IMG/VR virus record: IMGVR_UViG_3300024353_000055
Span: 1-28,039 of that record
Source: a virus
Length of the DNA stretch: 28,039 bases
Direction: 5' to 3' (one strand)
A program made the position numbers and the translations under genes. Below the pieces are notes generated by a model. The model was not told the origin of the DNA and ran no database searches. It saw only the letters and a list, made by a program, of their open reading frames with translations. Below, piece after piece: positions 4,291 to 23,159 of the stretch (the first letter of the stretch is position 1; each line of letters begins with the position of its first letter).

Positions 4291-5425
4291 GACTTTAATT
4301 TTTAGTTGTCTGCTGTTAGTTGTCAGCTGTCAGTTGTCGGTTGCTGGCATGGTCACTCATGTAGACACTTTAAGACCAACATATGGTGGAAACGCGGATG
4401 AGTGGACGGGGAATTATTTAGACATTGACGAAGCAGAGCGGGACGATGACAGCACTTATATATCTGCAAATGCTGCGGGTTTGCAAGAATCCTGGCTTTG
4501 TATGGCATCAGGTGGCTGTCCTGCCAACTGGGTTTACATACCAATGGCAGATACAGTAAAGATTTCTGTGTGGGGGAGAATCACCATTCCGGGACCGGAA
4601 GTCATCTTCGGTCAATGTGAAAACCTGGAAAGCAGAGTTAATTGGTGTTATGCAGACACGCAGGTCTTGACTTTAAGTTATGCCGAATATATCTGGTCGA
4701 TCTATGGCGATTCGTGCAATGATAGTAGCTGGTCGGCTTATAGATTAGCCACGTCACAATGGGGGGTTGAAAGTTACATGGCGGCTGGTTGGCCCAAAGG
4801 GGGATATGCCAGAGGCACCCAGTCTTACCTGGTGGCTTACTGGGACTTTTCCGACTCAGCCGAGATATTGACCGTATCCGCCTCTCTATGTTCGACTTGG
4901 ACGGTATTTGGCTGTGACGATGTGGCGGGATGTTTAACCTCGCAGGTATGTGGTGACATTCGGACTGATACAAAAGATGAAATTCAGGCATGGAGAATGA
5001 GCACCTATTCAAACCCATCCGGCACCAAAGTCGATTCGATAGAGGGAAGGCTAACGGGTTTTGTAGTAGATGATAACCAAGACTCGCTAACGGTTTTCTA
5101 TGCAATTGAATCGGGCGGGACTTGCACCAAGTATGGAGTTGATACCATACCCGATCTCGGTCCCTATTCAAATTTTGGGGGACCGGAACATTCTGTGGTC
5201 TGGTCAACCTGCCCTGCTACTGGAGTAGCTTGGACGGTCTCAGATCTTACCGACCCGAACAAGGGCTTCGGGGTAGTTAATTTGCACAACTCACATATCG
5301 TAGCTTCATGGTTTGTAGTCATAGTTTATTATTCGGCGGCGGAGGCGGCGGCAGGTCAAGTAATTATTATCAGCCAAAATTTTCATAGACCTAAAAGTGC
5401 AAAGATTGATTGGATAATGAAATGA
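4259..5425 (+). CDS. Secreted beta-rich, fibre-like protein 1
   Basis: No catalytic domain is recognised. The frame is open from 4145, but the N-terminal part there would overlap the YkgJ gene deeply. A TTG at 4259 with a GAGAGGA ribosome site at 4244-4250 gives a protein of 388 aa. This starts with a typical Sec leader (MEARLNCRTFKTLIFSC, hydrophobic core, then SVAG). The mature part is rich in D, S, T, G and aromatic residues with several cysteines, as in extracellular beta-structured fibre or adhesin domains. The leader core is encoded by a degenerate 7-base tandem repeat (4304-4345). The 3' end overlaps the next gene as ATGA. It may be a tail fibre, or a protein displayed by the infected host. 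The start codon is uncertain. Confidence 0.55.
   Translation: MEARLNCRTFKTLIFSCLLLVVSCQLSVAGMVTHVDTLRPTYGGNADEWTGNYLDIDEAERDDDSTYISANAAGLQESWLCMASGGCPANWVYIPMADTVKISVWGRITIPGPEVIFGQCENLESRVNWCYADTQVLTLSYAEYIWSIYGDSCNDSSWSAYRLATSQWGVESYMAAGWPKGGYARGTQSYLVAYWDFSDSAEILTVSASLCSTWTVFGCDDVAGCLTSQVCGDIRTDTKDEIQAWRMSTYSNPSGTKVDSIEGRLTGFVVDDNQDSLTVFYAIESGGTCTKYGVDTIPDLGPYSNFGGPEHSVVWSTCPATGVAWTVSDLTDPNKGFGVVNLHNSHIVASWFVVIVYYSAAEAAAGQVIIISQNFHRPKSAKIDWIMK
4304..4345 (+). repeat. Six-unit degenerate heptanucleotide tandem repeat (AGTTGTC)
   Basis: Six consecutive 7-base units run AGTTGTC, TGCTGTT, AGTTGTC, AGCTGTC, AGTTGTC, GGTTGCT. Three are identical. Seven is not a multiple of three, so the array is read in all phases, and it encodes the hydrophobic core of the leader of fibre-like protein 1. 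Confidence 0.7.
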
Positions 5426-10511: not shown

Positions 10512-10697
10512 ATGAAGATTCTAAGCATTGACAAAGACAAAGTGCAGGTGGAGCTGACGAAGGAAGACATTAAGATAATTAAGAGTGGATTGGAATGCGA
10601 ATTTGGAAAAACAGGAAGGGCGCTTTTCACCCAAAGATTTTCTAAGCCAGTTTCTCAATTGAAGGAGGGATTTGAAAAGATAAAGACACAAATGTAA
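10512..10697 (+). CDS. Hypothetical small protein (61 aa), islet 1
   Basis: The ATG lies 4 bases after the preceding stop. The product begins MKILSIDKDKVQVELTKEDIK and ends LKEGFEKIKTQM, rich in K and E, probably alpha/beta. The first ten residues echo the neighbouring membrane peptide, suggesting that start regions have been copied or exchanged between small genes here. No family is recognised. It ends 5 bases before the conserved RNA element begins. Confidence 0.45.
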   Translation: MKILSIDKDKVQVELTKEDIKIIKSGLECEFGKTGRALFTQRFSKPVSQLKEGFEKIKTQM

Positions 10698-10702
10698 AAA
10701 TA

Positions 10703-10805
10703 AAATCTAAATAGCTTTATCGGACATTCGTAATTTACGACGCCGATTTGCCGCCTACCTGTGGTAGGTGGCGGGTCGGCGTTTTTTTGTTTGTGAGAAA
10801 ACAAA
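10703..10805 (+). terminator. Attenuator-like RNA element, copy 1 (conserved box, small hairpin, intrinsic terminator)
   Basis: Order of parts: the box AAATCTAAATAG (10703-10714); ATCGG (10719-10723); a small hairpin TCGTA/TACGA (10728-10732 with 10736-10740); and a strong terminator stem. The stem pairs CGCCGA (10741-10746) with TCGGCG (10776-10781), plus ten inner pairs around a 3-base loop, followed by seven T (10782-10788). ATCGG can pair instead with CCGAT (10743-10747), which would destroy the terminator stem. TTTGTTT (10786-10792) can pair with AAACAAA (10799-10805). It lies just before the protease/scaffold gene. The same parts at the same spacing recur at 22623. Confidence 0.8.
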
Positions 10806-10836
10806 TATCATGTGAAATGAAAGGAGGAATCATGTG

Positions 10837-12765
10837 ATGAGACTACAAAGAAACATTGCGACTCTTCAGGCTGGCATCCCTATCAGGCAGGAAACATTCG
10901 AGGGGCGCCCCCATCTGGTTGTGCCTGTGGTAGCACTGGTTGAAGGTGTTCATGTTGGAAGCCACGGTCCCTGCTTCTACCCGGCGAACGAGATTGGAAA
11001 ATACGTTGAGGCTTGGAATGGAATACCACTCCCCGTGTTTCATCCAGATGAGTATGGGATGAATGTGACGGCCAATACCCCTCAGCTGATTGAGGAGAGA
11101 TCGGTGGGGAGGCTGTTCAATGTATTTTTCGATTCTGATGGCGCCAAGCTCAAGGGTGAACTCTGGATTGACATCGGCAAGGCAGACAAGATTTCTCCAA
11201 TGGTCCTTTCTCTGATTCGATCAGGGCGACAACTGGAAGTCTCCACGGCGTTGTGGTCCGATGACGACAATATCCCAGGTCAATGGAGGGATGAGGAGTT
11301 CGATACCACTGTGAGAAATTACCGACCGGATCACCTGGCTCTGTTACCGGTCGGGGAAGGAGCATGTTCATGGGCTGATGGTTGCGGAGTGAGGGTCAAC
11401 GATGCTGGTGGAGGAAAGTTAGAGGTGTCCTTTCAACTGAACATCCGGAGTACTGCGAGGACACCGAGCTTTGATGGAACCGAGTCGGTATCGTGGGCGA
11501 ACGTAACCACATCGTTTTCTGCTTATCGTGATGCATACTATCGGAGTAAAGACGGACGGCCGGATAACATTCCCACACGGGTTGCCGATGCACCATCTGC
11601 ATTGAGAAACTGGATTGCCTCAAAGACCCTGCTGGGCGAGGGCGGTGCGGATAATGAGCGGGACTTGATCTTTTTCCCAGTGGTGAACCCAAGGACTGGC
11701 AAGCTGAACGAGGGCGCTTTGCGGGCCGTAATCAGCGGACGGGGGGCACAAGCCCGGATACCCGCTGAGGCGAAGACTTCGGCGCAGCGAAAGGCCCGCA
11801 ACCTTCTAAACAAGCACTTCGGTGCAGAACTGGAGGTCGACGAAGCGATGAAGAATGAGAAAAACGGGCTTAAAGAAAAACTCAAAGCCCTTATCCGGTC
11901 GGTGGCAGACGCTGTCGGCCTGCATGTACAGGAGCTAAGCCATGAAGAATTGCGGTCGAAAATCCAGCATACCTTGGATGCGATGGACAACCCAGGATGG
12001 ATTCACTTTGTAAAGGAGATCTACGACAACTCCGTGGTGTACGAGGCACGGGGCAACAACCCAAGCGAGACGGGTCAACCGGCCCCCATCGTCAAGCTCT
12101 ATCGGCGGGGATTCTCTGTTGATGACAACGATGTGGTAATCCTAAAAGATGATATAGAGGAGGTGAAAGAGGAAAGAGCCTATGTTCCGGTCGAGAATAC
12201 ATCGACCACCAATACGAAAACAGACGCTAACAATAAACTTAAGGAGGCAAAAACGATGGAGAAAAAAGAATTGATTGAAGGTCTGATTACTTGCGATCAG
12301 ACCAAGTTCGAGGAGGGGGATCGGGAGTGGCTGACAACTCTGGAGACGGAGCAACTGGACAAACTGAAGGCACCAGAGGAAAAACCGAAAAAAGAGCTGG
12401 ATCCAAAAGTCAACAAGGAAGAGTCCAAGGAAAAGGAAGCTGTGGTGAAACTGAAGGTGTCTGTCAACATGGATGAGTTTATTGAGAGTGCGCCTGACGA
12501 ACTTCAGGGAGTCCTTAATCGGGCAATTGCCCGGGATCGCTCCATCAAGGATGACTTGGTGAAAGCTCTCATGGCGAATGATCGCAACTCATTCTCTGAG
12601 GAGGAGCTCAAGGCGAAAGAGATTGACGAACTTGAGAACTTGGTGGAATTGGGTCGGATTGAGGTCGACTTCAGTGGCCGGATCGGTGGCCCAGATACAA
12701 ACGTCGACGAGGATAAGGCTCCGGATATGATTCCGGTATTCGATCTGGAGAAAAAGTCGGCATAA
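10837..12765 (+). CDS. Prohead protease-scaffold fusion (DUF2213-type)
   Basis: A protein of about 642 aa. Residues 1-185 look like the DUF2213 / prohead maturation protease group: FHPDEYG, then EVSTALWSDD, then NYRPDHLALLPVGEGACSWA with the conserved D-H-L-A. Residues ~270-330 have the ALRAVISGRGAQARIPAEAK segment found in related phage proteins. From about 420 the chain is highly charged, with K/E-rich low-complexity sequence, as expected of a scaffold removed during head maturation. A GGAGG site lies 9 bases before ATG 10837. GTG 10834 is an alternative start. It directly precedes the decoration and capsid genes. The catalytic residues are not certain from sequence alone. Confidence 0.7.
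   Translation: MRLQRNIATLQAGIPIRQETFEGRPHLVVPVVALVEGVHVGSHGPCFYPANEIGKYVEAWNGIPLPVFHPDEYGMNVTANTPQLIEERSVGRLFNVFFDSDGAKLKGELWIDIGKADKISPMVLSLIRSGRQLEVSTALWSDDDNIPGQWRDEEFDTTVRNYRPDHLALLPVGEGACSWADGCGVRVNDAGGGKLEVSFQLNIRSTARTPSFDGTESVSWANVTTSFSAYRDAYYRSKDGRPDNIPTRVADAPSALRNWIASKTLLGEGGADNERDLIFFPVVNPRTGKLNEGALRAVISGRGAQARIPAEAKTSAQRKARNLLNKHFGAELEVDEAMKNEKNGLKEKLKALIRSVADAVGLHVQELSHEELRSKIQHTLDAMDNPGWIHFVKEIYDNSVVYEARGNNPSETGQPAPIVKLYRRGFSVDDNDVVILKDDIEEVKEERAYVPVENTSTTNTKTDANNKLKEAKTMEKKELIEGLITCDQTKFEEGDREWLTTLETEQLDKLKAPEEKPKKELDPKVNKEESKEKEAVVKLKVSVNMDEFIESAPDELQGVLNRAIARDRSIKDDLVKALMANDRNSFSEEELKAKEIDELENLVELGRIEVDFSGRIGGPDTNVDEDKAPDMIPVFDLEKKSA
12256..12765 (+). CDS. Nested scaffold protein from an internal in-frame start
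   Basis: AAGGAGG (12241-12247) lies 8 bases before an in-frame ATG at 12256 inside the protease-scaffold gene. It would give a 169-aa product, MEKKELIEGLITCD and onwards, consisting only of the charged scaffold part and sharing the stop at 12765. Phage lambda makes its scaffold Nu3 from within the protease gene C in the same way. The opening KKELIEGLI...FEEGDREWLTTLETEQLDKL resembles the separate starts of related phage proteins. The internal ribosome site is as strong as that of the full gene. Confidence 0.55.
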   Translation: MEKKELIEGLITCDQTKFEEGDREWLTTLETEQLDKLKAPEEKPKKELDPKVNKEESKEKEAVVKLKVSVNMDEFIESAPDELQGVLNRAIARDRSIKDDLVKALMANDRNSFSEEELKAKEIDELENLVELGRIEVDFSGRIGGPDTNVDEDKAPDMIPVFDLEKKSA

Positions 12766-12825
12766 CAGAACGTGCGATCGGATTTGTAGATCGTGCAGAA
12801 CACTAACAATTGGAGGAACTGTAAA

Positions 12826-13284
12826 ATGGCATTCAAAACAATAACCATCAAGGGCGACCCAGTCATAGGCGAGCGCAAGGCAGCGGCGGCGATTACCCCT
12901 GGATTTTTGCTTGAGCTTATCTCGACAGATAAAGTCCAAAAGCACGCAACCGCTGGTGGGAGTGCCTACGCCATGTTCGCATTGGAGGATGAGAATCAGG
13001 GCAAGGAAATCGGGGATGCTTACGTGACCGACAACGTCTGCCTGTTCGGTATGTTCAGTCCGGGCGATGAAGTCAATGCTCTTTTGGCTAACGGGGAGAC
13101 TGCGGACATCGGGAGCAAACTGGAATCCAACGGGGACGGGTATCTCAGGGTTGTAGATGCCGATGTATCAGTCGGAGATCTTGGTATTCAGTCCATCGTC
13201 TGTATCGCTCTCGCAGCTCTCGACATGAGCGATTCGAGTGGCGCAGACCCAGCATCACAGCGAATTCGGTGCATGGTCATCTAA
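12826..13284 (+). CDS. Capsid decoration / head-stabilising protein
   Basis: A 152-aa protein with ATG 12826 chosen over 12793 because GGAGG sits 9 bases upstream. The product is small, acidic and beta-rich: MAFKTITIKGDPVIGERKAA, then ITPGFLLEL, later LFGMFSPGDEVNALLANGE and GDLGIQSIVCIALAALD. Proteins of this size and composition between protease/scaffold and capsid genes are usually capsid cement proteins (DUF2190-like or gpD-like). The assignment relies on position and general pattern. Confidence 0.65.
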   Translation: MAFKTITIKGDPVIGERKAAAAITPGFLLELISTDKVQKHATAGGSAYAMFALEDENQGKEIGDAYVTDNVCLFGMFSPGDEVNALLANGETADIGSKLESNGDGYLRVVDADVSVGDLGIQSIVCIALAALDMSDSSGADPASQRIRCMVI

Positions 13285-13350
13285 ATTCTTGACCGCACCC
13301 GATTCGATTGAAAGAAATTAGATGTGTAAAACTAACAGGAGGACTTAAAA

Positions 13351-14352
13351 ATGAGTGAAAAAGAAATATCTGCTGCCGTTGACGCCATTTTCAAGGGAAA
13401 AGCGTTCGGTGGTGTGGCAAGTCGACTGTTGCAGAGCGGGATGAATGCGAATGCACTCCGGACTAATGACACTCTCCGAAAGGACGAGTGGAAGCACTTC
13501 GACGAGGCCGTGGTGAAGATCTCCCAGCAACGCTTGGTCGGTGTCAATGATCTGATCAGTCGAGGACTCTTTCTTAACATCGAGAATGGACTCGGCACGA
13601 CTGTGTTGCAGTACGAGACCGAGAGTGATATTGAACCCGCAGAGATCAACATGACTGGATCATCCCGGCCTGCGAGCGATCGGCCAACATACGACATTGC
13701 ATCGCTACCTCTGCCCATCGTCCACAAGGGATTCCAGCTCAATATCCGGGTTCTCAATGCCAGCCGGAAACTTGGCCAGCCTTTGGACACCACTTTGGCA
13801 CAAATGTCGGCAAGAAAGGTGGCCGAGAAGATCGAGGAGATACTCTTCGTCGGAGCCAGCACCTATACTTTCGGTGGCGGGACTTTGTACGGATATGTAG
13901 ACCACCCACAGGCGAACTCAGTGACCTTGTCGATCCACTGGGATGCCAGCTCCAAAACTGGGGCACTCATCCTGGCCGATGTCATCGCCATGAAGCAGGC
14001 ATCCATTGACGACCGCCATTATGGGCCGTGGATGTTGTACGTTCCTGCGGGCTATGAGACGGTGTTGGATGAAGACTACAGTACCAGTTACCCGAATGTC
14101 ACGATCAGGGATCGCATCAAGAGGATTGGCGGGATCGAGGACGTGAAGGTGGTAGACAAACTGACGGCTGATACTGTTGTCCTCGTTGAGATGCAGCCCG
14201 AGACCGCTCGCATGGTAATCGGCCTTCAGCCGACAACCTTGCAGTGGGATACCGAGGGTGGCATGGTCAACCACTTCAAGGTAATGGCTATCATGGTTCC
14301 GCAGATCAGAGCCGATCAGGACTTGAGATCTGGAATCGCAGTGCTGTCGTAA
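13351..14352 (+). CDS. Major capsid protein, HK97 fold
   Basis: A 333-aa protein. An AGGAGG site precedes the ATG. N-terminal helices (residues 1-70) lead to the E-loop-like LETESDIEPAEINMTG region. A-domain features follow: WMLYVPAGYETVLDEDYS, RIKRIGGIEDVKVVD, VVLVEMQPETARMVIG and the end HFKVMAIMVPQIRADQDLRSGIAVL. These are typical of the encapsulin-like branch of HK97-fold capsid proteins. It would assemble the icosahedral head around the scaffold encoded just upstream. The first 18 bases around its start are identical to those of the unrelated gene at 15400. Confidence 0.85.
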   Translation: MSEKEISAAVDAIFKGKAFGGVASRLLQSGMNANALRTNDTLRKDEWKHFDEAVVKISQQRLVGVNDLISRGLFLNIENGLGTTVLQYETESDIEPAEINMTGSSRPASDRPTYDIASLPLPIVHKGFQLNIRVLNASRKLGQPLDTTLAQMSARKVAEKIEEILFVGASTYTFGGGTLYGYVDHPQANSVTLSIHWDASSKTGALILADVIAMKQASIDDRHYGPWMLYVPAGYETVLDEDYSTSYPNVTIRDRIKRIGGIEDVKVVDKLTADTVVLVEMQPETARMVIGLQPTTLQWDTEGGMVNHFKVMAIMVPQIRADQDLRSGIAVLS

Positions 14353-14363
14353 TCAACAACCAA

Positions 14364-14388
14364 AGGATCGGTAACCAGACCGGATCCT
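14364..14388 (+). other. Stable hairpin just after the capsid gene
   Basis: AGGATCGGT (14364-14372) pairs with ACCGGATCCT (14379-14388), leaving one bulged G and a 6-base loop. It begins 12 bases after the capsid stop. Only A-rich sequence follows, so it is not a standard terminator. It may stabilise or separate the abundant capsid mRNA from downstream transcripts. Confidence 0.4.
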
Positions 14389-14408
14389 AAAAGAACAAGG
14401 AGACAGAG

Positions 14409-14762
14409 ATGTTGTTTAAACTAAAGACCGGCATGGGCAAACATCGCATCCGCCGGGATGGACGGATGGCTGTGCTTAAACCCGGGGATGAGATAGACTG
14501 CGAAAAGCACGAACTGGGCGGAGCCATATACAAGTTCGAGCAGTTGGAGCCCGATCCGTCCCCTCCGGAGCCGAGTATGGGTCTGAGGGCGGTGCATCGT
14601 GGCTTTGGTAAGTGGGATGTGATAAACGAAGCATCGGGAGTGAAGATTAACGACAAACCACTGACCAAAGGGGAAGCACGGGAGATGGCGTTGTCTCTGC
14701 CACCAGATGAAGAAAAAGATCAAACGACAGAGAAAGACAACGCTACGCCAGAGGATGAATGA
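14409..14762 (+). CDS. Hypothetical head-region protein (117 aa)
   Basis: The start ATG has AAGGAGA upstream. The first half (MLFKLKTGMGKHRIRRDGRM, LKPGDEIDCEKHELGGAIYKFEQL) reads like a small beta-barrel, often seen in short phage proteins after the capsid gene. The middle has a G-F-G-K-W-D-V-I-N segment. The tail is acidic and disordered (PPDEEKDQTTEKDNATPEDE). No firm family is recognised. The next gene starts directly after its stop (TGAATG), so the two are coupled. Confidence 0.5.
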   Translation: MLFKLKTGMGKHRIRRDGRMAVLKPGDEIDCEKHELGGAIYKFEQLEPDPSPPEPSMGLRAVHRGFGKWDVINEASGVKINDKPLTKGEAREMALSLPPDEEKDQTTEKDNATPEDE

Positions 14763-15407
14763 ATGCGACGACAGGAGGGTTTATGGCGAGTCCCAGCCCT
14801 GTGGCCTAAAGGTGAGTGTTTCATCCTCGGTGGAGGGTTGAGTCTCCGTGACGTGAATCTTGGTCTGCTGAAGGGTCGCCGGGTCATCGCCGTCAACAAT
14901 GCCTACAAGCTGGGAGACTGGATTGATGTGATGTTCTTCGGCGACTGCCGGTGGCTGAATCAATACGGAGCTGGACTCTTAGACTTTGCCGGCCTCAAGG
15001 TGACAACTTGCGAGAAGCATCTGGACAAACCCGGGATTAAGGTGGTGAAAAGGCGGAATACGCCACATGGAATATCCAGAGATCCGGGGATTCTCTCTTG
15101 GAATCTAAGCTCTGGGGCTTGTGCTATCAACCTGGCTTATCACTTTGGCGTTAAGCGGATCATATTATTAGGATTTGATATGAAGAAGAACGGCGACAAA
15201 CACAACTGGCACGATGATTATGAACCTCATCATTCGAAGTTTAATCCTTACGGGCGATTCATGCGACCGTTCCCGCATATAGCGGAGGATCTCAAGAGAC
15301 TGAATGTGGAATGTGTCAATGCGGCGCCCAGGAGTGCCTTGGATGTGTTTCCGAGGGTTAAATTGGAAGATGTACTAAAGGTCGAAAGGATGGTTAAAAA
15401 TGAGTGA
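14763..15407 (+). CDS. DUF115 / sialyltransferase-like Rossmann protein
   Basis: A 214-aa protein, first gene of the glycan cassette. A glycine-rich start FILGGGLSLRDVNLGLLKGRRVIAVNNAY (near 21-48) is followed by IDVMFFGDCRWL. The segment SSGACAINLAYHFGVKRIILLGFDM (near 118-140) is the pattern shared by DUF115-like proteins and some sialyl/glycosyltransferases. An H-rich stretch (KHNWHDDYEPHHSKFNPYG) may bind metal or substrate. Phage relatives are usually called hypothetical or DUF115, and a glycosyl-transfer role is inferred. It overlaps the next gene by 8 bases. Confidence 0.55.
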   Translation: MRRQEGLWRVPALWPKGECFILGGGLSLRDVNLGLLKGRRVIAVNNAYKLGDWIDVMFFGDCRWLNQYGAGLLDFAGLKVTTCEKHLDKPGIKVVKRRNTPHGISRDPGILSWNLSSGACAINLAYHFGVKRIILLGFDMKKNGDKHNWHDDYEPHHSKFNPYGRFMRPFPHIAEDLKRLNVECVNAAPRSALDVFPRVKLEDVLKVERMVKNE

Positions 15408-16014
15408 AAAAAAACCGCACTCCTTCCCCACGGGAGCTGCAAAACCCAAATCCACACCTGCACTGCCAATTGGAAAAAAAGGCATCAAGATAGTTACACC
15501 TGGCAATGGCGAGGGACCGTTTACAGGTTTTGGCACTAAGGTTATTGATCTGGAAACTGGCAATGAGATCAAAAATGTCCGGGAGATTCATGTTCACATA
15601 GTACCAGATGATGTTGTGTCTGCCGAATTGGTTATGCTTCCGTCGGAAATAACCATCAAGGGCGCGAAGGCTCAAGTATTGGCTGAAGACACAGTAAATC
15701 GATCTACTATGATTAATTTTCTTAAGAACAATATTTACCGATTTATAAAAATTAAGACGGAAAAATCAGATGGTGGTTATTCGGAACGGCGGGTCATGCT
15801 TGACTTGCCTAGTTTTCTGAAAGAGTTCGATCTGATTTTTCCAGCACAAATTAAAGACATCAGTAGCTTGGGAGATCCGTGGCGACGCTTTGCGCGAACA
15901 CAAGAATCGAAAAACGATGAGCCAAAGCTTCCCAGCACTAAAGATTGCATTAAAGTCATAACTGCTGGCTCTACCCCAAATTTTGAAGCCGCCAGAAAGG
16001 CGGATAAATCGTGA
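15400..16014 (+). CDS. Hypothetical protein with a small beta domain (204 aa)
   Basis: No family recognised. A K/P-rich, probably disordered start (MSEKKPHSFPTGAAKPK) leads to a beta-rich segment, FTGFGTKVIDLETGNEIKNVREIHVHIVPDD (about 40-72), then VSAELVMLPSEITIKGAKAQVL. The remainder is mixed and charged. The start codon sits inside the end of the previous gene, and the stop overlaps the next GTG (GTGA), so it is co-translated with the glycan enzymes. The 18 bases around its start equal those of the capsid gene. It may be a small virion protein carried in the cassette. Confidence 0.5.
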   Translation: MSEKKPHSFPTGAAKPKSTPALPIGKKGIKIVTPGNGEGPFTGFGTKVIDLETGNEIKNVREIHVHIVPDDVVSAELVMLPSEITIKGAKAQVLAEDTVNRSTMINFLKNNIYRFIKIKTEKSDGGYSERRVMLDLPSFLKEFDLIFPAQIKDISSLGDPWRRFARTQESKNDEPKLPSTKDCIKVITAGSTPNFEAARKADKS

Positions 16015-16748
16015 TAACTGTTGCTTGTGTCTACAAAACTGGAGGGGACTATGACGAGACTTACGTCGAACGGTTGGCCGCCAGTGTCCATCGGATGCTC
16101 AGCTTGCCACACCGATTCGTCTGCCTGACTGACGTTCCGAAACGGCATCTAAACCACTATCCTATTGACCAAGTGATTCCCCTGGAGCGAGGCTGGCCAA
16201 GTTGGTGGGCAAAGATGGAGCTTTTCGGTCTGCCTGGACCCGTGCTTTATTTTGACCTTGATACGGTTCTGACGGGTTCAATTGACGAACTTGCCACATG
16301 GATTGTGCAATCGAAGAACTCTTTATTGATGCTACGTGGTTTCTATAAGAGCGATAAGTGCTCCGGAATCCTCGGATGGAACGGCGACTTAAAGTGGATA
16401 CTGGATGCATTTATTGAGCATTATGCGAATCAGGCTACTTGGCGCAAGTGCCCGAACGCAACCTATATGCTGGTCAAAAGAAAGCAGTTTCGCGGTGACC
16501 AAGAATGGCTACAATCTTTCCTTCCCAACCATCCCCAGCTTTCCGTGATCTTGGCTCAGGATGTCATGTCAGGGATATATAGCTATAAAGTTCATGTAAG
16601 AAACAATGGATCGATTCCGCAGGATGCAAAAATAATCTGCTTTCATGGGCGTCCCCGACCGCATGAAATAAAGAATATCCCTTGGATGGAAAAGAACTGG
16701 AATAATTTGATTGAAGCCCTTGGTGAACTGGAGGAACAATCAGAATGA
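16011..16748 (+). CDS. Glycosyltransferase, GT8-like (GT-A fold)
   Basis: A 245-aa protein starting at GTG 16011 (GTGA overlap). It begins ITVACVYKTGGDYDETYVERLAASV and has the nucleotide-sugar metal motif in VLYFDLDTVLTGSIDEL, where D-L-D is the D-x-D of GT-A enzymes (near residues 83-85). Late segments IPQDAKIICFHGRPRPHEI and W-x-x-x-W fit the acceptor end of this group. It would transfer a sugar from a nucleotide sugar to an unknown acceptor. It is coupled to the epimerase by an ATGA overlap. Confidence 0.7.
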   Translation: MITVACVYKTGGDYDETYVERLAASVHRMLSLPHRFVCLTDVPKRHLNHYPIDQVIPLERGWPSWWAKMELFGLPGPVLYFDLDTVLTGSIDELATWIVQSKNSLLMLRGFYKSDKCSGILGWNGDLKWILDAFIEHYANQATWRKCPNATYMLVKRKQFRGDQEWLQSFLPNHPQLSVILAQDVMSGIYSYKVHVRNNGSIPQDAKIICFHGRPRPHEIKNIPWMEKNWNNLIEALGELEEQSE

Positions 16749-17665
16749 AGATACTGATAACTGGGGCAACCGGATTCATAGGCACATATCTGTCGAAAGA
16801 ATTGCGAATTGCCGGGCATGATGTAATGGGGGTGGATCAGGAAGATGGAGACTTGACCAGGTTTGGTATCGCTGATTGGCTTGTCAAGAGTCATAGGCCT
16901 GATGTGCTTGTTCACTTGGCCGCTAAAGTCGGACGATTATTTGGGGAGGAGGATCCCCGGATGACCGTCGATACCAACGTGGTCGCTACTATACATGTCG
17001 CTCAGGCTTGTGCCAAGTACGGAGTCCGACTCGTGTATGGGTCGACGAGTGAGGCTTTTGGGGACAACGGAGAACGAAGTGTCGACGAAAGGGAACATGG
17101 AGTTCTTCCTCACAATCTTTATGGTTTGTCAAAACGATGGGGGGAAGAAGCTGCACGATTGTATGTTGGGAAGAACCTGCAGATCCTCCGGTTCTCCATG
17201 CCCTACGGTCCGGGACTTCCCGCCGGTCAGGGGAGAGCGGCAGTGCTCACGTTCCTCTGGCAAGCCCAACGGGGGATGCCATTGGTTGTGCACAGGGGAG
17301 GATGCCGTTGCCTCTGTTGGATCGGTGACCTGACATCGGGGGTACGAATGATCGTTGAGGATGGCGGTTATGGAGTTTGGACTGTGGGTAGAGATGACAA
17401 CGAAGTGACAATGCTTGAGGTGGCTAGGATGGCTTGTTCAATAGCGAAAGCTCCTCGAAGATTGATTCATGAAATCGATCCTCCTCAGAATCAGACCGTC
17501 GTTAAACGATTGGTTATTAGAAGATTAAAAGATCTTGGATGGAATCCCCAGGTGGGTTTGATCGAGGGGATGTCAAAAACATACGAGATGGTAAAAGTGT
17601 ATGACAAAGAAGGAATGCCCCCCGAGGCATGGCGAGGGCTCGTAGAAAATGGGGTGATTTCGTGA
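16745..17665 (+). CDS. NAD-dependent sugar epimerase/dehydratase (extended SDR)
   Basis: A 306-aa protein. The nucleotide-binding loop GATGFIG lies at residues 7-13 after KILIT. Then come VLVHLAAKVG, the serine-containing YGSTSEAFG, the catalytic pair Y-x-x-x-K in YGLSK near residue 124, and RFSMPYGPG. This is the standard order of extended short-chain dehydrogenases that epimerise or dehydrate nucleotide sugars such as UDP-glucose or GDP-mannose. Length is normal (about 300). ATGA at the start and GTGA at the end couple it to the glycosyltransferases on both sides, and it probably makes their donor sugar. The exact substrate is not predictable. Confidence 0.8.
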   Translation: MKILITGATGFIGTYLSKELRIAGHDVMGVDQEDGDLTRFGIADWLVKSHRPDVLVHLAAKVGRLFGEEDPRMTVDTNVVATIHVAQACAKYGVRLVYGSTSEAFGDNGERSVDEREHGVLPHNLYGLSKRWGEEAARLYVGKNLQILRFSMPYGPGLPAGQGRAAVLTFLWQAQRGMPLVVHRGGCRCLCWIGDLTSGVRMIVEDGGYGVWTVGRDDNEVTMLEVARMACSIAKAPRRLIHEIDPPQNQTVVKRLVIRRLKDLGWNPQVGLIEGMSKTYEMVKVYDKEGMPPEAWRGLVENGVIS

Positions 17666-18366
17666 ATAAGTCGACCATACTCATAACGACCAGGAATCGG
17701 GCATCTCAATTGAGACTCGCCCTTGAGTCAATCCGTATGAAGAATTATCAGGATGTAGATATTTTGGTGATTGACGATGCCTCTACCGAAGAAACGGCCT
17801 CAGTGCTTCGGGGCTACGGGAGATTTGTGCGTACAGAACGAATTGAAAGACCCGGCGGCTATCGCCACAACCCTGCAGCCGTGCTGAATGTGGGGCACCT
17901 TTTGGCCAAGACTGACGTTGTTATTGAGCAATGTGGAGAGGTCTGTCATTTAACCAATTGTGTTGAGCCACTGATGAAGGTATGCCAGCCTGGACGCATG
18001 GCTGTGGCCAGAGTGTATTGTGGAACTCCAGACCAGATGCGTCGTTTGCAAATTAAGATTGATGAGGGAAGCTACAATTTTCCGGAGGATTTTGAATTAG
18101 ATGTATGCTCGAATAGGACTGGGACTTTAAAGGTGCCTTATTTGGGAGAGGATTCTATCGCTTTGTACACTGGATGGGAACGGCCAGCCCCTTTTTTGTT
18201 TTTGGGTGCAATTCATAGAAAGGATTTTGAAGCTGTGAAGGGTTATGATGAAAAATTGTCACGGGCGGCTGATGATGATTTAGCCAATCGACTTCAAAAC
18301 AAGGGAGTCCGATTTTGTTTCGTGGGTCGGGCGGTGGCATTCCATCTTCAACATGGGAAGAGTTGA
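17662..18366 (+). CDS. Glycosyltransferase family 2
   Basis: A 234-aa protein beginning at GTG 17662, which overlaps the epimerase stop. The open frame extends to 17629, but that start would overlap more and would precede the domain. The GT2 opening is STILITTRNRASQLRLALESI followed by VDILVIDDASTEETASVLRG, where D-D is the usual nucleotide site. FLFLGAIHRKDFEAVKGYDEKLSRAADDDLANRLQNKG near the end is the acceptor-side E/D-D region of family 2. It would add a sugar to a glycan, with acceptor unknown. It belongs to the coupled cassette. Confidence 0.75.
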   Translation: MNKSTILITTRNRASQLRLALESIRMKNYQDVDILVIDDASTEETASVLRGYGRFVRTERIERPGGYRHNPAAVLNVGHLLAKTDVVIEQCGEVCHLTNCVEPLMKVCQPGRMAVARVYCGTPDQMRRLQIKIDEGSYNFPEDFELDVCSNRTGTLKVPYLGEDSIALYTGWERPAPFLFLGAIHRKDFEAVKGYDEKLSRAADDDLANRLQNKGVRFCFVGRAVAFHLQHGKS

Positions 18367-18370
18367 CACG

Positions 18371-19276
18371 ATGATTTTGCAAGGCACATATGTTAAGGGA
18401 ATCGGTAGGGCAAATCAGTTTGGAGACGTGTATCGACCAGCTTTTGGTTGCCCGATGATAGCAACGTTTAATGTTCAAATGAATAATCCTATAACGAAGG
18501 CGCATCCTACCAAGACGGTTGATCTTACATGGCCTGGAGAATCACCCAAACCGGTAACTTTCTGGCTTTGCCAGATCAATGGACACTGGGCTTGGGCGAT
18601 GCGGTGGAAAGGCACACGGCTGCCTGAGACTCGAATTGAGTTTATCAGCAGACGTCTATTGCCCGAATGTCTAAAAGAAGAATTGCTCAAGATTGAGGTC
18701 TTTGAGCGGTGGCCAGAAGCAAAGATTCAGGACTGGGCAGGCAAACATTATCAGTGGCAAGGATTTCCTTGGTTGCCTCATCAGAGGGTAGACAGCCAAA
18801 GCGTCTGGGAGACCATCAAGCCATACGTCGACTGGTCGGGAGCCAGTGTTCTTGATGTAGGAAGCCATTACGGCTATTACAGTTTCCGGGCATCCAAGCT
18901 GGGGGCTTCTGTAACGGCAGTTGAACCGGACGATGAAGTGCGGGCCAAGGGGGAACTCATCGCTCGACATATTGAGATGCAGGATGTCCAATTTGAAAAG
19001 TCCATACACCCTTGCTCGCAGATCTCAGACATCATCCTCTATTTGAGCGTGCAACATCAATGGGATCCTATGTATGAGAATTTGACCGAGAAGGTCGCTG
19101 AACTGGCGAAATATACTAAATGCACCCTGTTCATAGAGATTATTTTGCCTCCAATGTTTGGTAAGGCATATAGCCCCGAGGATGTAGATGGAATGGTGGG
19201 CGGTCAAATACTCACAACATATAGGCATCGGCTACGGGGAAATCGGCGAATCTACAAGGTGGAGGGAATGGCGTGA
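18371..19276 (+). CDS. SAM-dependent methyltransferase (FkbM-like or class I)
   Basis: A protein of about 301 aa. ATG 18371 has GGAAGAG 8 bases upstream and is preferred over 18353. The N-terminal ~150 residues are not recognised. The second half has the SAM loop SVLDVGSHYGYYSFRASKLGASVTAVEPDDEVRA (motifs I and II), followed by weaker methyltransferase sequence with VEGMA at the end. In glycan loci such enzymes often methylate sugars. It lies between a glycosyltransferase and a sulfotransferase, which fits. Substrate unknown. Confidence 0.65.
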   Translation: MILQGTYVKGIGRANQFGDVYRPAFGCPMIATFNVQMNNPITKAHPTKTVDLTWPGESPKPVTFWLCQINGHWAWAMRWKGTRLPETRIEFISRRLLPECLKEELLKIEVFERWPEAKIQDWAGKHYQWQGFPWLPHQRVDSQSVWETIKPYVDWSGASVLDVGSHYGYYSFRASKLGASVTAVEPDDEVRAKGELIARHIEMQDVQFEKSIHPCSQISDIILYLSVQHQWDPMYENLTEKVAELAKYTKCTLFIEIILPPMFGKAYSPEDVDGMVGGQILTTYRHRLRGNRRIYKVEGMA

Positions 19277-19965
19277 TGGATGATCTGATTCTCATAACGG
19301 GAGCGGCAAGGTCTGGCATCTCACTAATCGCAGGCATCGTTCAATTGTGTGGTGCTTGGGGAGGACAGACTGTGCGATCCACGAGAGTTGACAAACACGG
19401 CTCTCTTGAGAACATGGAGATTCGGGATTCCGTTGTCAAGCCGTTCCTTCGGGGAATCAAAGCGGATCCCTCTGGACAGTGTCCGTTGCCCGATCTCAAA
19501 ACGTGCCGTGATCTTACCGACAAAGTCGCACCTTGGTGGCGGCAGCGAGTTAAGAAAATAATCGGTGACCAGGGCTACGGTGGTGGACCACTCTTTTTTG
19601 CGAGTCCGCTAAGTTGTTTGATCTGGCCGATCTGGGCCGCTGCCTTTCCGCAAGCCAAATGGATTATCGTGAGACGTAGTGACGAGGACATTGTCAATGC
19701 CTGCATAAAGACCGGTTTTATGCTTAAGTATAAACGAAAAGACGATTGGCAGAGTTGGCTTGATGTCCACAAGCGGCGTTTCGCCGAGATGATTAGTGAA
19801 CACTTAAACGTATGGCAGGTTTGGCCACAGAGAATGATTCAAGGAAAACTACCTCAGCTTCGGGAGATGATTGAGAGCCTGAACCTGCAGTGGGATCCTG
19901 TGGCTATCCGAGATTACATAACACCGATCCTGTGGAAAAAGGGAGTATTTGAAATAAGTAAGTAG
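19276..19965 (+). CDS. Sulfotransferase-like protein
   Basis: A 229-aa protein. The start ATG 19276 overlaps the previous stop (TGATG) and has GGAGGG upstream; GTG 19273 is possible. The N-terminal LILITGAARSGISLIAGIV fits the 5'-phosphosulfate-binding loop of PAPS sulfotransferases. AAFPQAKWIIVRRSDEDIVNACIKTGFM (near 125-150) matches the 3'-phosphate-binding region, where R and S contact PAPS. The end LREMIESLNLQWDPVAIRDYI is also typical. It would sulfate a hydroxyl on a glycan or similar acceptor. Sulfotransferases are uncommon in phages. Last gene of the cassette. Confidence 0.65.
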   Translation: MDDLILITGAARSGISLIAGIVQLCGAWGGQTVRSTRVDKHGSLENMEIRDSVVKPFLRGIKADPSGQCPLPDLKTCRDLTDKVAPWWRQRVKKIIGDQGYGGGPLFFASPLSCLIWPIWAAAFPQAKWIIVRRSDEDIVNACIKTGFMLKYKRKDDWQSWLDVHKRRFAEMISEHLNVWQVWPQRMIQGKLPQLREMIESLNLQWDPVAIRDYITPILWKKGVFEISK

Positions 19966-19982
19966 CGCTCAAGGAGGTACTG

Positions 19983-20345
19983 ATGGCCAGAGTAACAGAA
20001 GCCGAAGTGAAAAAGATCATTAACACAACGCTCACCGATGAGGAAGTGACACCCTTCTTAACCTCGGCGAATGTTCTCATCACGGATGTCCTTACAGATG
20101 AGGGATATGGTGACGCAATACTGAAAGAGATCGAGCGGTGGCTGGCTGCTCATTTTGTTGCCATCCAAGACCCTCAAGTGACGAAGGAGAAGATCGGAGA
20201 CGTGGATGCAGCGTACCAGGGGAAAACAGGTCTTGGGCTGAACCATACCTCTTATGGGCAGCAGGTGATGATTCTGGATCATCACGGAAAACTGGCCGAG
20301 ATTGCCCAGAGCAAGGGACCAGCGGAGGTTAAGGTAATAACATGA
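19983..20345 (+). CDS. Head-tail adaptor (gp6-like / DUF4054-type)
   Basis: A 120-aa protein with an AAGGAGG site before ATG 19983. The helical start (VTEAEVKKIINTTLTDEEVTPFLTSAN), WLAAHFVAI and the conserved VTKEKIGDVDAAYQGKTGLGLNHTSYGQQVMILD fit the head-tail connector family that forms a ring below the portal. The TGA at 20343-20345 overlaps the next start (ATGA). This gene marks the return to the standard morphogenesis order after the glycan cassette. Confidence 0.75.
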   Translation: MARVTEAEVKKIINTTLTDEEVTPFLTSANVLITDVLTDEGYGDAILKEIERWLAAHFVAIQDPQVTKEKIGDVDAAYQGKTGLGLNHTSYGQQVMILDHHGKLAEIAQSKGPAEVKVIT

Positions 20346-20707
20346 GCCCGAGTCGATCAACCTTGTTGACGGACAAGCTAAAGCAAGTCGCCGTGTATTG
20401 GGGTAATCCCCAAAATGATGGCGCTGGGGGAAGAACGTTTGACGATCCGGTCGAGTTGAGTGTCCGGTGGGAGCAACGGCAGGAGCTATTCATCGATGCT
20501 AACGGCCAAGAGAGTACTTCAAAGGCTGTGGTGTATCTGGACCAAGACATTGACATCGGAGGATATCTCTATTTGGGAGATTTAGACGATCTGTCGTCAG
20601 CCGAGGAGGGTGATCCTCTTACCGTGAGCGGAGCTTATGAGATTCGGGGATCCAAGAAACTGCCCGACATCAAAGCCGATCGATTCTTAAGAAAGGTATG
20701 GTTATAA
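20342..20707 (+). CDS. Head-tail joining / head closure protein
   Basis: A 121-aa protein starting in an ATGA overlap. Beta-rich segments VELSVRWEQRQELFIDANGQESTSKAVVYLDQDIDIGGYLYLGDL are the hallmark of small head closure proteins (SPP1 gp16 / lambda FII-like position). The end LRKVWL overlaps the next gene by TAATG. It would form the stopper ring between adaptor and tail. The assignment rests on both sequence pattern and gene order. Confidence 0.7.
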   Translation: MSPSRSTLLTDKLKQVAVYWGNPQNDGAGGRTFDDPVELSVRWEQRQELFIDANGQESTSKAVVYLDQDIDIGGYLYLGDLDDLSSAEEGDPLTVSGAYEIRGSKKLPDIKADRFLRKVWL

Positions 20708-21123
20708 TGGCTACCATAGCAAGGCCACTTGTTATAACGGGAACAGACACAGTGCTTCGGAACTTGAACCGGGAAATCATGGGCATCCGAAACCGGTCGA
20801 AGGCTGGCTTGCGGGAGGCGATACTGGTAGTTCGGAAACGGTCGCAAGAATTAACACCTGTCGGTGAGACAGGCAACCTAAGAGCATGGGTGCATACTGA
20901 AGTTTACGATACGCCAAAGGGACCGGGTGCGGTGATTGGATATGAAGCTAATTATGCGGTTTACGTCCATGAGATTCCGCCACCACCAGCTCGTAGCCCC
21001 GGTGGAAGGAGTGCAACGCACAAGGTCGGTCAATGGAAATACTTAGAGACAGCATTGAAAGAAAAGCAACACGAAATACTTGAGATCATAAGAAAGCGTG
21101 CCCGCCCAGGGATAGGGAGATAA
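20707..21123 (+). CDS. HK97 gp10-like tail completion protein
   Basis: A protein of about 138 aa. ATG 20707 overlaps the preceding stop (TAATG). ATG 20698 is an alternative. The pattern is that of the HK97 gp10 family: VLRNLNREIMGIRNRSKAGLREAILVVRKRSQELTPVGETGNLRAWVHTEV, then YAVYVHEIPPPPARSPGGR, then WKYLETALKEKQHEILEIIRKRA. Members join the tail to the head or help complete the neck. The next gene (tail terminator) begins five bases after its stop. Confidence 0.75.
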   Translation: MATIARPLVITGTDTVLRNLNREIMGIRNRSKAGLREAILVVRKRSQELTPVGETGNLRAWVHTEVYDTPKGPGAVIGYEANYAVYVHEIPPPPARSPGGRSATHKVGQWKYLETALKEKQHEILEIIRKRARPGIGR

Positions 21124-21127
21124 TTTG

Positions 21128-21523
21128 ATGAACGCACCAAGCGAGGATGTAAAAGATATTCTTGAGGCAACTTCGTCTTTGGGACTAACGTTCGCAACGG
21201 ATCTATTTGTCAGCGAGATGCCCACGGAACCTGATCAATGCGTCTGTATTTACGATACCGGAGGATACGATCCTGAAGCTGACTATACCTATGAGAAGCC
21301 GACGATACAGATTCGTGTCCGAGGAGCGAAGGGCGACTATCTTGTCGCCCATGAACTCGCCCAGAGCATTCGGGACACGCTAAACGGAGAGCATGATTAT
21401 ACGATCAACGGTGCCAGATACATCGGAATCTGGACCGTTGGGGATATTTTGTTTGTTGGGTATGATAATAACCACCGTCCGTTGCTAACGGTCAATTTCC
21501 GTCTGCATCGGACAAACGCTTAA
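21128..21523 (+). CDS. Tail terminator / minor capsid-like protein
   Basis: A protein of about 131 aa from ATG 21128. TTG 21125 is an alternative start. It begins MNAPSEDVKDILEATSSLGLTFATDLFVSEMPTEPDQCVCIYDTGG and continues with PTIQIRVRGAKGDYLVAHELAQSIRDTL and RPLLTVNFRLHRTNA. This matches the PF12691-type 'minor capsid protein from bacteriophage', which occupies the tail terminator position. It would cap the tail tube at its head-proximal end. It is the last morphogenesis gene before islet 2. Confidence 0.7.
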   Translation: MNAPSEDVKDILEATSSLGLTFATDLFVSEMPTEPDQCVCIYDTGGYDPEADYTYEKPTIQIRVRGAKGDYLVAHELAQSIRDTLNGEHDYTINGARYIGIWTVGDILFVGYDNNHRPLLTVNFRLHRTNA

Positions 21524-21540
21524 GCAAAAGAAAAAACAAA

Positions 21541-21795
21541 ATGATTGACAAGCGCAACCAGCCATACGTAGATTATCTTGGGAAGCTTGAAAAAGAAAAG
21601 TTTACTGGGAAGGTTGTTTTGGAACTAAATTTTTTCAACGGCATAATAGCAAATATGAACCGTGAGATTAAGCCGTTGCCAGGAATTACAGAGAGAGAAA
21701 GCCTGAAATTAAATCATAACCCTAAAACGGGGAGGATGAAATGGAAGCAAAGGGAAAAGATGAAATGTCAGAAAGAAACAAGAATATGTCACTAA
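21541..21795 (+). CDS. YezD/DUF2292-like protein, first gene of islet 2, with a read-through tail (84 aa)
   Basis: MIDKRNQPYVDYLGKLEKEKFTGKVVLELNFFNGIIANMNRE aligns with the first gene of islet 1 (10006). After PGITERESLKLN the frame runs through the start region of the next gene and ends in NPKTGRMKW...RICH. The duplicated copy of this stretch at 22195 has one extra G, which brings a TAA in frame after LKLKS. The long tail here is therefore probably a frameshift extension caused by a one-base deletion. The function of the family is unknown. A promoter-like TTGACA lies in its first codons. Confidence 0.55.
   Translation: MIDKRNQPYVDYLGKLEKEKFTGKVVLELNFFNGIIANMNREIKPLPGITERESLKLNHNPKTGRMKWKQREKMKCQKETRICH
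21545..21574 (+). promoter_or_regulatory. Weak sigma70-type promoter candidate, islet 2
   Basis: TTGACA (21545-21550), an 18-base spacer and TAGATT (21569-21574, 4 of 6 bases of the -10 consensus). It sits in the same place relative to the start of its gene as the islet 1 promoter at 10010, with the same spacer length. Confidence 0.35.
21677..21761 (+). repeat. Direct repeat, copy 1 (about 85 bases, gene-end plus gene-start)
   Basis: Matches 22195-22280 with three substitutions and one single-base indel. It holds the 3' end of the 21541 gene, the GGGGAGG ribosome site and the first seven codons (MEAKGKD) of the gene at 21741. Confidence 0.9.
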
Positions 21796-22169
21796 AGCCG
21801 AATCAAGGGGTGCTTGTTGTTCAGAGAGTCAACCGCACGATTAGATGCTATTCGGGTGAATTTGTAGAATTCGGTGATCATAAGGGTGTGGATCGACATG
21901 GCACCCGGATTTATATGTTAATGATAAAAGATAAAAAGGGTAACATTAACGAAGAGTGGCCTGGCAACTGTTATGAGGAAAATAAAGATGTGTTTTTAGA
22001 TCTTGAGCACATTAGGAATCAAATTCGGGAACTCGATTTTAAGATAAGTAAGTTAAGTGAACAAATTGAACCCAGATTGGAGGAACTTGAGCGTCTTGAA
22101 GGTCGATTTCCCGATAGGGATAAACGGGAGGGGTTAGGCGATAAATATGTGGATGACAGGTTAGCATAA
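21741..22169 (+). CDS. Hypothetical protein with a C-terminal coiled coil (142 aa), islet 2
   Basis: The ATG has GGGGAGG 6 bases upstream, and the gene starts inside the previous one. A basic start (MEAKGKDEMSERNKNMSLKPNQG) is followed by a small beta-rich part, VLVVQRVNRTIRCYSGEFVEFGD, HGTRIYMLMIKDKKGN. A helical segment at about 93-125 (HIRNQIRELDFKISKLSEQIEPRLEELERLE) has heptad spacing. No family is recognised. It shares its first seven residues and leader with the next gene because of the direct repeat. Confidence 0.5.
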   Translation: MEAKGKDEMSERNKNMSLKPNQGVLVVQRVNRTIRCYSGEFVEFGDHKGVDRHGTRIYMLMIKDKKGNINEEWPGNCYEENKDVFLDLEHIRNQIRELDFKISKLSEQIEPRLEELERLEGRFPDRDKREGLGDKYVDDRLA

Positions 22170-22194
22170 GAATGAACAGGTAATTTAAATCTAA

Positions 22195-22280
22195 TGCCAG
22201 GAATTACGGAGAGAGAAAGCCTGAAATTAAAGTCATAACCCTAAAGCAGGGAGGATGAAATGGAAGCAAAGGGAAAAGAT
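22195..22280 (+). repeat. Direct repeat, copy 2 (about 86 bases)
   Basis: Second copy of 21677-21761. Here the old gene end reads LKLKS then TAA. It is followed by a CAGGGAGG ribosome site and the MEAKGKD start of the gene at 22260. It is the fossil of a duplication, or of recombination at gene starts. Confidence 0.9.
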
Positions 22281-22601
22281 AAAACAAATGAACAGAAAGA
22301 ACCAATTTATACACCCATCAGTGAATTGACGGCTATCGCTGGGCCTAAATCTACGAGAGACTTCGTTGGGGAGACATATTTGGGGACGATGATAAAAAGC
22401 TTATCAATATTTTGTATGAAGTTAAAGAGAAATGTCCAAATTGACTGGTCTGACGTGGAAGTTGGCTTTCGAGAAACCAAAGATGACGATAATCAAATTT
22501 GGAGGGAAATAATTTTTCTTGTTAAATGTAAATGTGGAGAGAAACACACAATAATAAGTTTCGCCTCCTTTCTTCAATGCATAAAGAATAATAATATTTA
22601 G
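22260..22601 (+). CDS. Chimeric small protein with a tail-tube-like segment (113 aa), islet 2
   Basis: The start (MEAKGKD) comes from the direct repeat. Residues 20-43, around ELTAIAGPKSTRDFVGETYLG, align with residues 26-49 of the tail tube protein encoded just downstream, with 12 of 24 identical (I, E, I, GP, TRDF, T, LG). The remainder is unrelated to the tube, includes a C-x-C-G motif (KCKCGEKHT) and has no known family. It looks like a fragment of a tail tube gene joined to other sequence. It could interact with the tube, or be a degraded gene still in frame. Confidence 0.5.
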   Translation: MEAKGKDKTNEQKEPIYTPISELTAIAGPKSTRDFVGETYLGTMIKSLSIFCMKLKRNVQIDWSDVEVGFRETKDDDNQIWREIIFLVKCKCGEKHTIISFASFLQCIKNNNI

Positions 22602-22622
22602 AGGAGCCTAAAAAGATAGTTG

Positions 22623-22717
22623 AAATCTAAATAGTTCTATCGGACAATCCGAAAACCGGAAGCCGATTCGATCCTGAGAGATCAGGGTTGGGTCGGCTTT
22701 TTTGTTTTATAAACAAA
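22623..22717 (+). terminator. Attenuator-like RNA element, copy 2
   Basis: Same plan as 10703. Box AAATCTAAATAG (22623-22634), then ATCGG (22639-22643), then hairpin TCCG/CGGA (22648-22651 with 22657-22660). The terminator stem pairs 22661-22677 with 22682-22698 (17 pairs with G-U, GAGA loop), followed by six T (22698-22703). ATCGG can pair with CCGAT (22663-22667), competing with the terminator. TTTGTTT (22701-22707) pairs with AAACAAA (22711-22717). The stems differ in sequence from copy 1 but keep pairing, while box and spacings are identical. It lies just before the strong ribosome site of the tail tube gene. Confidence 0.8.
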
Positions 22718-22739: not shown

Positions 22740-23159
22740 ATGAGTGATGCAATTGCTGGATTGGGAGCGCAGTTCAAGAGGGGCGATGGTGCGTCCGCCG
22801 AGGGCTTTACGGCCATTGCCGAAGTGATCAATATAACTGGACCTGGGCTTACCAGGGACTTCATCGACGTTACTCATCTGGGATCAACGGGTGGATATCG
22901 TGAGTTCATCACAGGATTTCGTGATGGTGGAGAATATACCTTCACGGTCAATTTTACTCGAGCTGAATATGACCTGTTGTTGGCTGATTATGAAAGCGAC
23001 GACTCCGTCAACTACCAGGTTGTTCTCCCAGATACCGACATCACGACGCTTGAGTTCGCCGGCTTCGTGACTGCCATTCCGATGACCGTCCCATTCGATG
23101 ATAAAATCACCGTGGACGTGACAATAAAGATCACGGGTGGAGTTACCATACCTACATAA
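22740..23159 (+). CDS. Major tail tube protein
   Basis: A 139-aa protein with AAAGGAGGTG before the ATG, among the best ribosome sites here and as expected for an abundant protein. The sequence has the tube pattern: KRGDGASAEGFTAIAEVINITGPGLTRDFIDVTHLGSTGGYREFI near the start, then DGGEYTFTVNFTRAEYDLLL, VVLPDTDITTLEFAGFVTAIPMTVPFDDKITVDVTIKITG. These fit the lambda-type tail tube family (hexameric rings). It lies upstream of the frameshift chaperones and the tape measure gene, the standard order. Confidence 0.85.
   Translation: MSDAIAGLGAQFKRGDGASAEGFTAIAEVINITGPGLTRDFIDVTHLGSTGGYREFITGFRDGGEYTFTVNFTRAEYDLLLADYESDDSVNYQVVLPDTDITTLEFAGFVTAIPMTVPFDDKITVDVTIKITGGVTIPT

Follow-up and report, generated by a model that had tools for sequence, protein, structure and literature searches.

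Repeated attenuator-like RNA elements in the late structural operon of an uncultured phage lineage

Why would a phage place the same leader and terminator twice within one structural operon, once ahead of head genes and once ahead of a tail gene? The question is raised by a 28,039-nt stretch of viral DNA, IMG/VR virus record IMGVR_UViG_3300024353_000055, positions 1-28,039 (the window, below, is this whole stretch). A reading of the sequence alone had pointed there to two matched RNA elements, at 10703 and 22623, and our analysis finds that they belong to a new RNA element family of about 85 nt, above chance and confined, within the collections searched, to a few related phages. Copy positions, covarying stems and modelled folding suggest, at a probability that we put at roughly 0.45, that the family consists of phage-specific cis-acting transcription attenuators, that is, conditional intrinsic terminators, acting within the late structural operon.

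Two matched copies and a small family

Both window copies lie on the forward strand and read, 5' to 3', as a box, a small hairpin, a terminator stem of 16-20 bp and a U-tract. The pattern AAATCTAAATAG-N4-ATCGGACA is exact at 10703 and at 22623, just where it had been reported, and occurs at no other window site even allowing three mismatches, with zero matches expected in shuffled window sequence. In the first copy (w1) the box AAATCTAAATAG occupies 10703-10714 and ATCGGACA, comprising the putative antiterminator 5' arm and a conserved ACA, 10719-10726; these are followed by the small hairpin UCGUA-AUU-UACGA (10728-10740) and the intrinsic terminator (10741-10788; stem 10741-10781, U-tract 10782-10788), which carries CCGAT in its 5' arm at 10743-10747. 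The second copy (w2) matches w1 exactly in AAATCTAAATAG (22623-22634) and ATCGGACA (22639-22646), and continues with a hairpin UCCG-AAAAC-CGGA (22648-22660), identified by folding and covariation, and a terminator found by folding and a terminator scan (22661-22703; stem about 22661-22697, U-tract 22698-22703), with CCGAT at 22663-22667. The distance from ATCGG to CCGAT, said to be identical, is indeed 19 bases in each (10724-10742 and 22644-22662).

The terminators fold with energies of -38.7 (w1) and -30.8 kcal/mol (w2), corresponding to shuffle z-scores of -8.3 and -7.6, and are the sole strong, long-stem forward-strand terminators in the 28-kb window. A TTTGTTT/AAACAAA pair, also part of the sequence-only reading, is present in both window copies (3' halves at 10799-10805 and 22711-22717) but is variable across the family, where the constant feature after the stem is T6-7-GTT. 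This GTT directly follows the U-tract in all seven copies described below, and the same is seen in several unrelated terminators of the phage family.

Relatives of the window were gathered via their major capsid protein (MCP), tail tube and protease genes. A tail-tube relative (L027) carries an element at the homologous tail-tube site, 84% identical to w1 over 92 nt, and two near-identical contigs (L041/L042/L210) carry one before the protease. A covariance model, R1, was built from these four copies and searched against some 240 loci; its out-of-sample matches all fell on one contig, that of the near relative G155, at 59.4, 58.2 and 40.2 bits. Of the three G155 copies, G155a lies before the MCP gene (15440-15523), G155c before the tail tube gene (24885-24964) and G155b before the block of head morphogenesis/protease genes (11810-11890). 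The original proposal was to fall if related phages had no other copies; it survives this test, with five more full copies at comparable places. In all, the family has seven full copies spread over four related phage lineages, each on the sense strand and ahead of protease/head, MCP or tail tube genes; most of the seven share the box consensus AAAANCYRAATAG, which is degenerate in G155b. An additional copy of the box only, AAAACTGAATAAGCAGTATCGGACACCGGATAGGAG, lies in G155 directly 5' of a start codon (L232:8050-8107; G155 contig 11492-11552), and is best explained, from its arrangement, as an element split by an inserted cassette.

Wide exact-pattern scans of IMG/VR returned 23 matches, of which just three contigs (two of them near-identical) had the terminator; the remaining matches were mostly one repeated coding-like stretch. 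No Rfam family matched above the gathering threshold, matches at a relaxed E-value being at chance level, and a known riboswitch or RNA family was rejected on these grounds. Among cellular genomes, two Candidatus Zixiibacteriota assemblies contain the nearest relatives of the MCP, at 70% and 62% identity. A host origin of the element was rejected because neither R1 nor a pattern search turned it up in 132 Zixibacteria genomes; R1 was run with stricter filters, which weak copies could escape, and the sole pattern match looks like chance.

Covarying stems, an invariant base and competing folds

The small hairpins of w1 and w2 differ in sequence while keeping their pairing (UCGUA/UACGA and UCCG/CGGA). 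This had been called covariation; the two window copies alone amount to a comparison of two paralogues, but the claim is borne out by the further copies. In the seven-copy alignment, fitted to R1 and used for the main count, 94% of cells pair and two-sided changes occur in 12 of 21 pairs, with 26 further pair types. Compensatory changes of this kind affect all five pairs of the small hairpin and seven pairs of the upper terminator. None of 500 shuffles reached the observed values, and registers slid by 1-3 columns collapsed. Because the seven-copy alignment was fitted to the model, an independent MAFFT alignment of four copies was also counted, and counted first, with the same outcome.

Four CCGA/UCGG pairs near the terminator base never vary, while every other terminator pair shows some change. 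The box UCGG is likewise invariant in all seven copies, and is identical to the sequence of the terminator 3' arm. Since an ordinary terminator whose stem is free to drift elsewhere does not require a fixed base, the natural reading of the alignment is a three-way constraint between box, 5' arm and 3' arm (UCGG/CCGA/UCGG), the alternative being direct sequence recognition. Boxless ordinary terminators are present in the same phages (G155 position 161, G013 position 5391), so the box is not simply these phages' way of making terminators.

An attenuator of this kind places an intrinsic terminator 5' of a gene, as is found here, together with an upstream complement to the terminator 5' arm that allows a mutually exclusive fold, which is predicted for all seven copies. 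The two exclusive states proposed earlier gain indirect support from these modelled folds and from the invariant terminator pairs, which are the very ones copied in the box. Along the nascent transcript, CCGA is predicted in all seven copies to pair with the box until the terminator 3' arm emerges, and then to switch. Before that point the pairing probability is mostly 0.75-1.0, reached in L027 only after a short competing hairpin. When the upstream part was replaced by dinucleotide shuffles, the observed level of CCGA-upstream pairing was reached in 1-16% of shuffles per copy, which places five copies above 95% of shuffles and all copies at or above 84%; the copies are related, and these values are not to be multiplied. 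Two extensions were tried and rejected. An anti-antiterminator (CYGA/UCGG) is predicted in L027, L042 and G155a, with little or none in w1, w2, G155b and G155c after the terminator forms, and is not a family feature. Nor is it supported, beyond the element family, that terminators of these phages generally carry antiterminators: across 18 non-redundant terminators the median p was 0.32.

If the element is an attenuator, RNA polymerase would read in from upstream, and the box UCGG would pair first with CCGA across the small hairpin to give the antiterminator. The emerging 3' arm UCGG would then compete for the same CCGA and, without interference, the terminator would complete beside the U-tract and halt transcription ahead of the head or tail module. 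Readthrough would follow if a factor stabilised the antiterminator hairpin or held the box. This might be a ligand, a modified polymerase or a protein of the phage that recognises the conserved unpaired AAUAG and ACA, and each copy would gate its own module. Intrinsic-terminator attenuators with a competing antiterminator hairpin are well known from trp and ribosomal leaders (surveyed in PMC2965389). The element resembles these in having a terminator before a gene, a 5' arm that also takes part in an antiterminator hairpin further upstream and a conserved motif. It differs in its setting, mid-operon among phage late structural genes and in several copies per genome, and in having neither a leader peptide nor an Rfam match. 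On inspection of all copies, neither a start codon nor a reading frame proved to be conserved ahead of the box, as a trp-type leader would have, and a leader peptide ending at the UAG of AAUAG was rejected for want of a conserved start.

At the same time, several observations weigh against attenuation. The ATCGG/CCGAT (UCGG/CCGA) pairing is invariant in all seven copies and hence without covariation, so covariation neither supports nor refutes it. The antiterminator is worth -7 to -10 kcal/mol against -26 to -39 for the terminator, and given this gap of 20-30 kcal/mol the terminator should win without a factor; for readthrough to be regulated, either a factor would have to bind or kinetics would have to favour it. 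A stricter single-copy test of antiterminator energy gave p of about 0.1 for w1 and w2. Ten G155 early proteins included no antiterminator match. R1 found no copies in some 170 other relative loci, and many relatives live without the element. Finally, the box-only copy of G155 lacks a terminator, the full element lying one small open reading frame (ORF) further 3'.

Inserted genes, promoters and loading RNAs as alternatives

The best-surviving alternative is that the elements are terminators of moron cassettes, or simple insulators, which end transcription of small inserted genes and limit read-in. The late polymerase would pass them by a general, Q-like antitermination modification, and the box would be kept by shared ancestry and gene conversion, or because recombination joins there. 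In lambdoid late operons, moron terminators are intrinsic terminators that follow small inserted genes among the structural ones, and the placement is alike: small, variable moron-type ORFs lie immediately 5' of w1, w2, the L042 copy and G155b. One of these, at 10512-10697 (forward strand) just 5' of w1, has a homologue in G155 (L232:7845-8048) just 5' of the box-only copy, which is followed by a further ORF and then the full element, as if a cassette had been inserted at the box. By inspection, an ORF resembling that at 21541-21795 before w2 adjoins the L042 element before the protease. A small-ORF family (K/E-FTGKVVLELNF-like) is found beside elements in three phages (window 21541-21795; L210, just upstream of 2615; L232:5780-5989). 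Elements and small genes seem to have been shuffled together among sites and phages, because upstream ORFs are shared between sites and phages and the L027 tail-tube element so closely resembles w1; this, too, fits the moron terminator. On the other hand, no small gene stands between the element and the upstream structural gene in G155a, where the box starts a few nucleotides past the decoration gene stop, or in L027 and G155c, where the element comes after the connector gene, so the moron reading does not account for everything. Unlike lambdoid moron terminators, the element also has a conserved box and a three-way complementary base, and shared ancestry alone does not explain diverged hairpins and upper stems beside an invariant box and stem base. 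We regard this alternative as rather unlikely.

Less probable still, and in our view distinctly unlikely, is that the box works as DNA, namely as a late promoter of the phage with AATAG as a -10-like sequence and a start near ATCGG, followed by a promoter-proximal terminator. Antitermination by Q and AlpA depends on a promoter that carries a DNA binding element and on a sigma-dependent pause; its usual layout is a promoter, a -10-like pause and a terminator close by (PMC9371919). Like these systems, of which Q acts on late phage genes and AlpA on genes of phage origin, the element lies among phage genes and has a strong terminator to be passed; the box-only copy directly before a start codon would leave a leader of about 27 nt, and G155c has a TATAGT-like hexamer. 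But no -35 or other upstream DNA is conserved in eight copies, so that the element shows no recognisable promoter of the Q/AlpA kind; the sequence upstream of G155a is coding, and the left half of the box is degenerate in G155b. A scan for sigma-70 promoters (-35/-10 hexamers 16-18 nt apart) gave matches near the window copies at chance numbers, and these were unconserved. A promoter, moreover, gives no reason for a terminator base that is invariant and identical to the box, and the homologous position of the box-only copy suggests a split element.

Very improbable is a put- or nut-like loading RNA for processive antitermination, in which box and small hairpin would bind RNA polymerase or a factor and the adjacent terminator would be the first to be overcome: conserved unpaired nucleotides do flank a variable hairpin, but three copies are spread along a single operon, more than a processive modifier would require, the start of the G155 late operon (terminase) has no copy, and no boxA-like sequence was noticed by eye. 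The put RNA of HK022, about 70 nt with two stem-loops, is found in early operons near PL/PR, binds the zinc-binding domain of RNA polymerase beta', works through RNA structure near terminators and influences terminators over 10 kb distant (PMC9378689). Like put, the element would be a small hairpin-bearing phage RNA that affects termination and is present in two copies per genome; it contains its own terminator and sits in a structural operon, and by these features is not a put RNA.

The genes beyond the element and possible gating by module

Downstream of w2 is the major tail tube gene (22740-23159, forward strand; Pfam Phage_TTP_12, PHROG 158). The forward-strand gene downstream of w1 (10834-12765) had been called protease/scaffold, but with no Pfam match and a single PHROG match of unknown function (PHROG 760) its product is a putative head protease/scaffold, and the name is provisional. 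Between the MCP and connector genes, within the structural operon, the window carries a block of genes that on inspection resemble those for glycosyltransferases, methyltransferases, epimerases and sulfotransferases (14763-19965). The window MCP is at most 38% identical to those of named phages in the phage collection, with no close known phage among them. By its gene content the phage group is temperate, at least in part, because G155 (contig of 52.9 kb) has an integrase-like gene, by inspection, and CI/Cro-type regulators.

Strong terminators of unrelated sequence lie at the same gene borders in other lineages (L003:7133, 9964 and 17345; L004:5812; L024:7447; L019:4196), before the protease in L003, L004, L024 and L019 and before the MCP and tail tube genes in L003. 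That unrelated strong terminators occupy the same places hints at a need for termination at such borders. The L003 terminators before MCP and tail tube have a common leader and stem sequence of their own, and the repeated leaders fold separately from their terminators. Before the protease block, L004 (5763-5786) and L024 (7396-7419) share TTGGCTG...RACCA...GGGGCCA around a small hairpin that changes sequence and still pairs, possibly a second, two-member attenuator type.

Attenuation at each copy leads to a broader and still more tentative idea, which we think doubtful: that a temperate lineage gates its late transcription per module, with one copy of a cis RNA switch for each structural block and one phage-encoded or polymerase-borne signal, as a non-processive alternative to Q-type antitermination. 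If such gating holds, the unrelated terminators at the same places in L003, L004, L024 and L019 would each have answered this need independently. If the element is regulated, head and tail synthesis would be controlled by repeated RNA switches in one operon, not by a single processive antiterminator. The RNA is small and well delimited, with a box, hairpin and terminator that could be swapped in reporter assays, and it may lead to a new antitermination factor of phage origin in this uncultured lineage.

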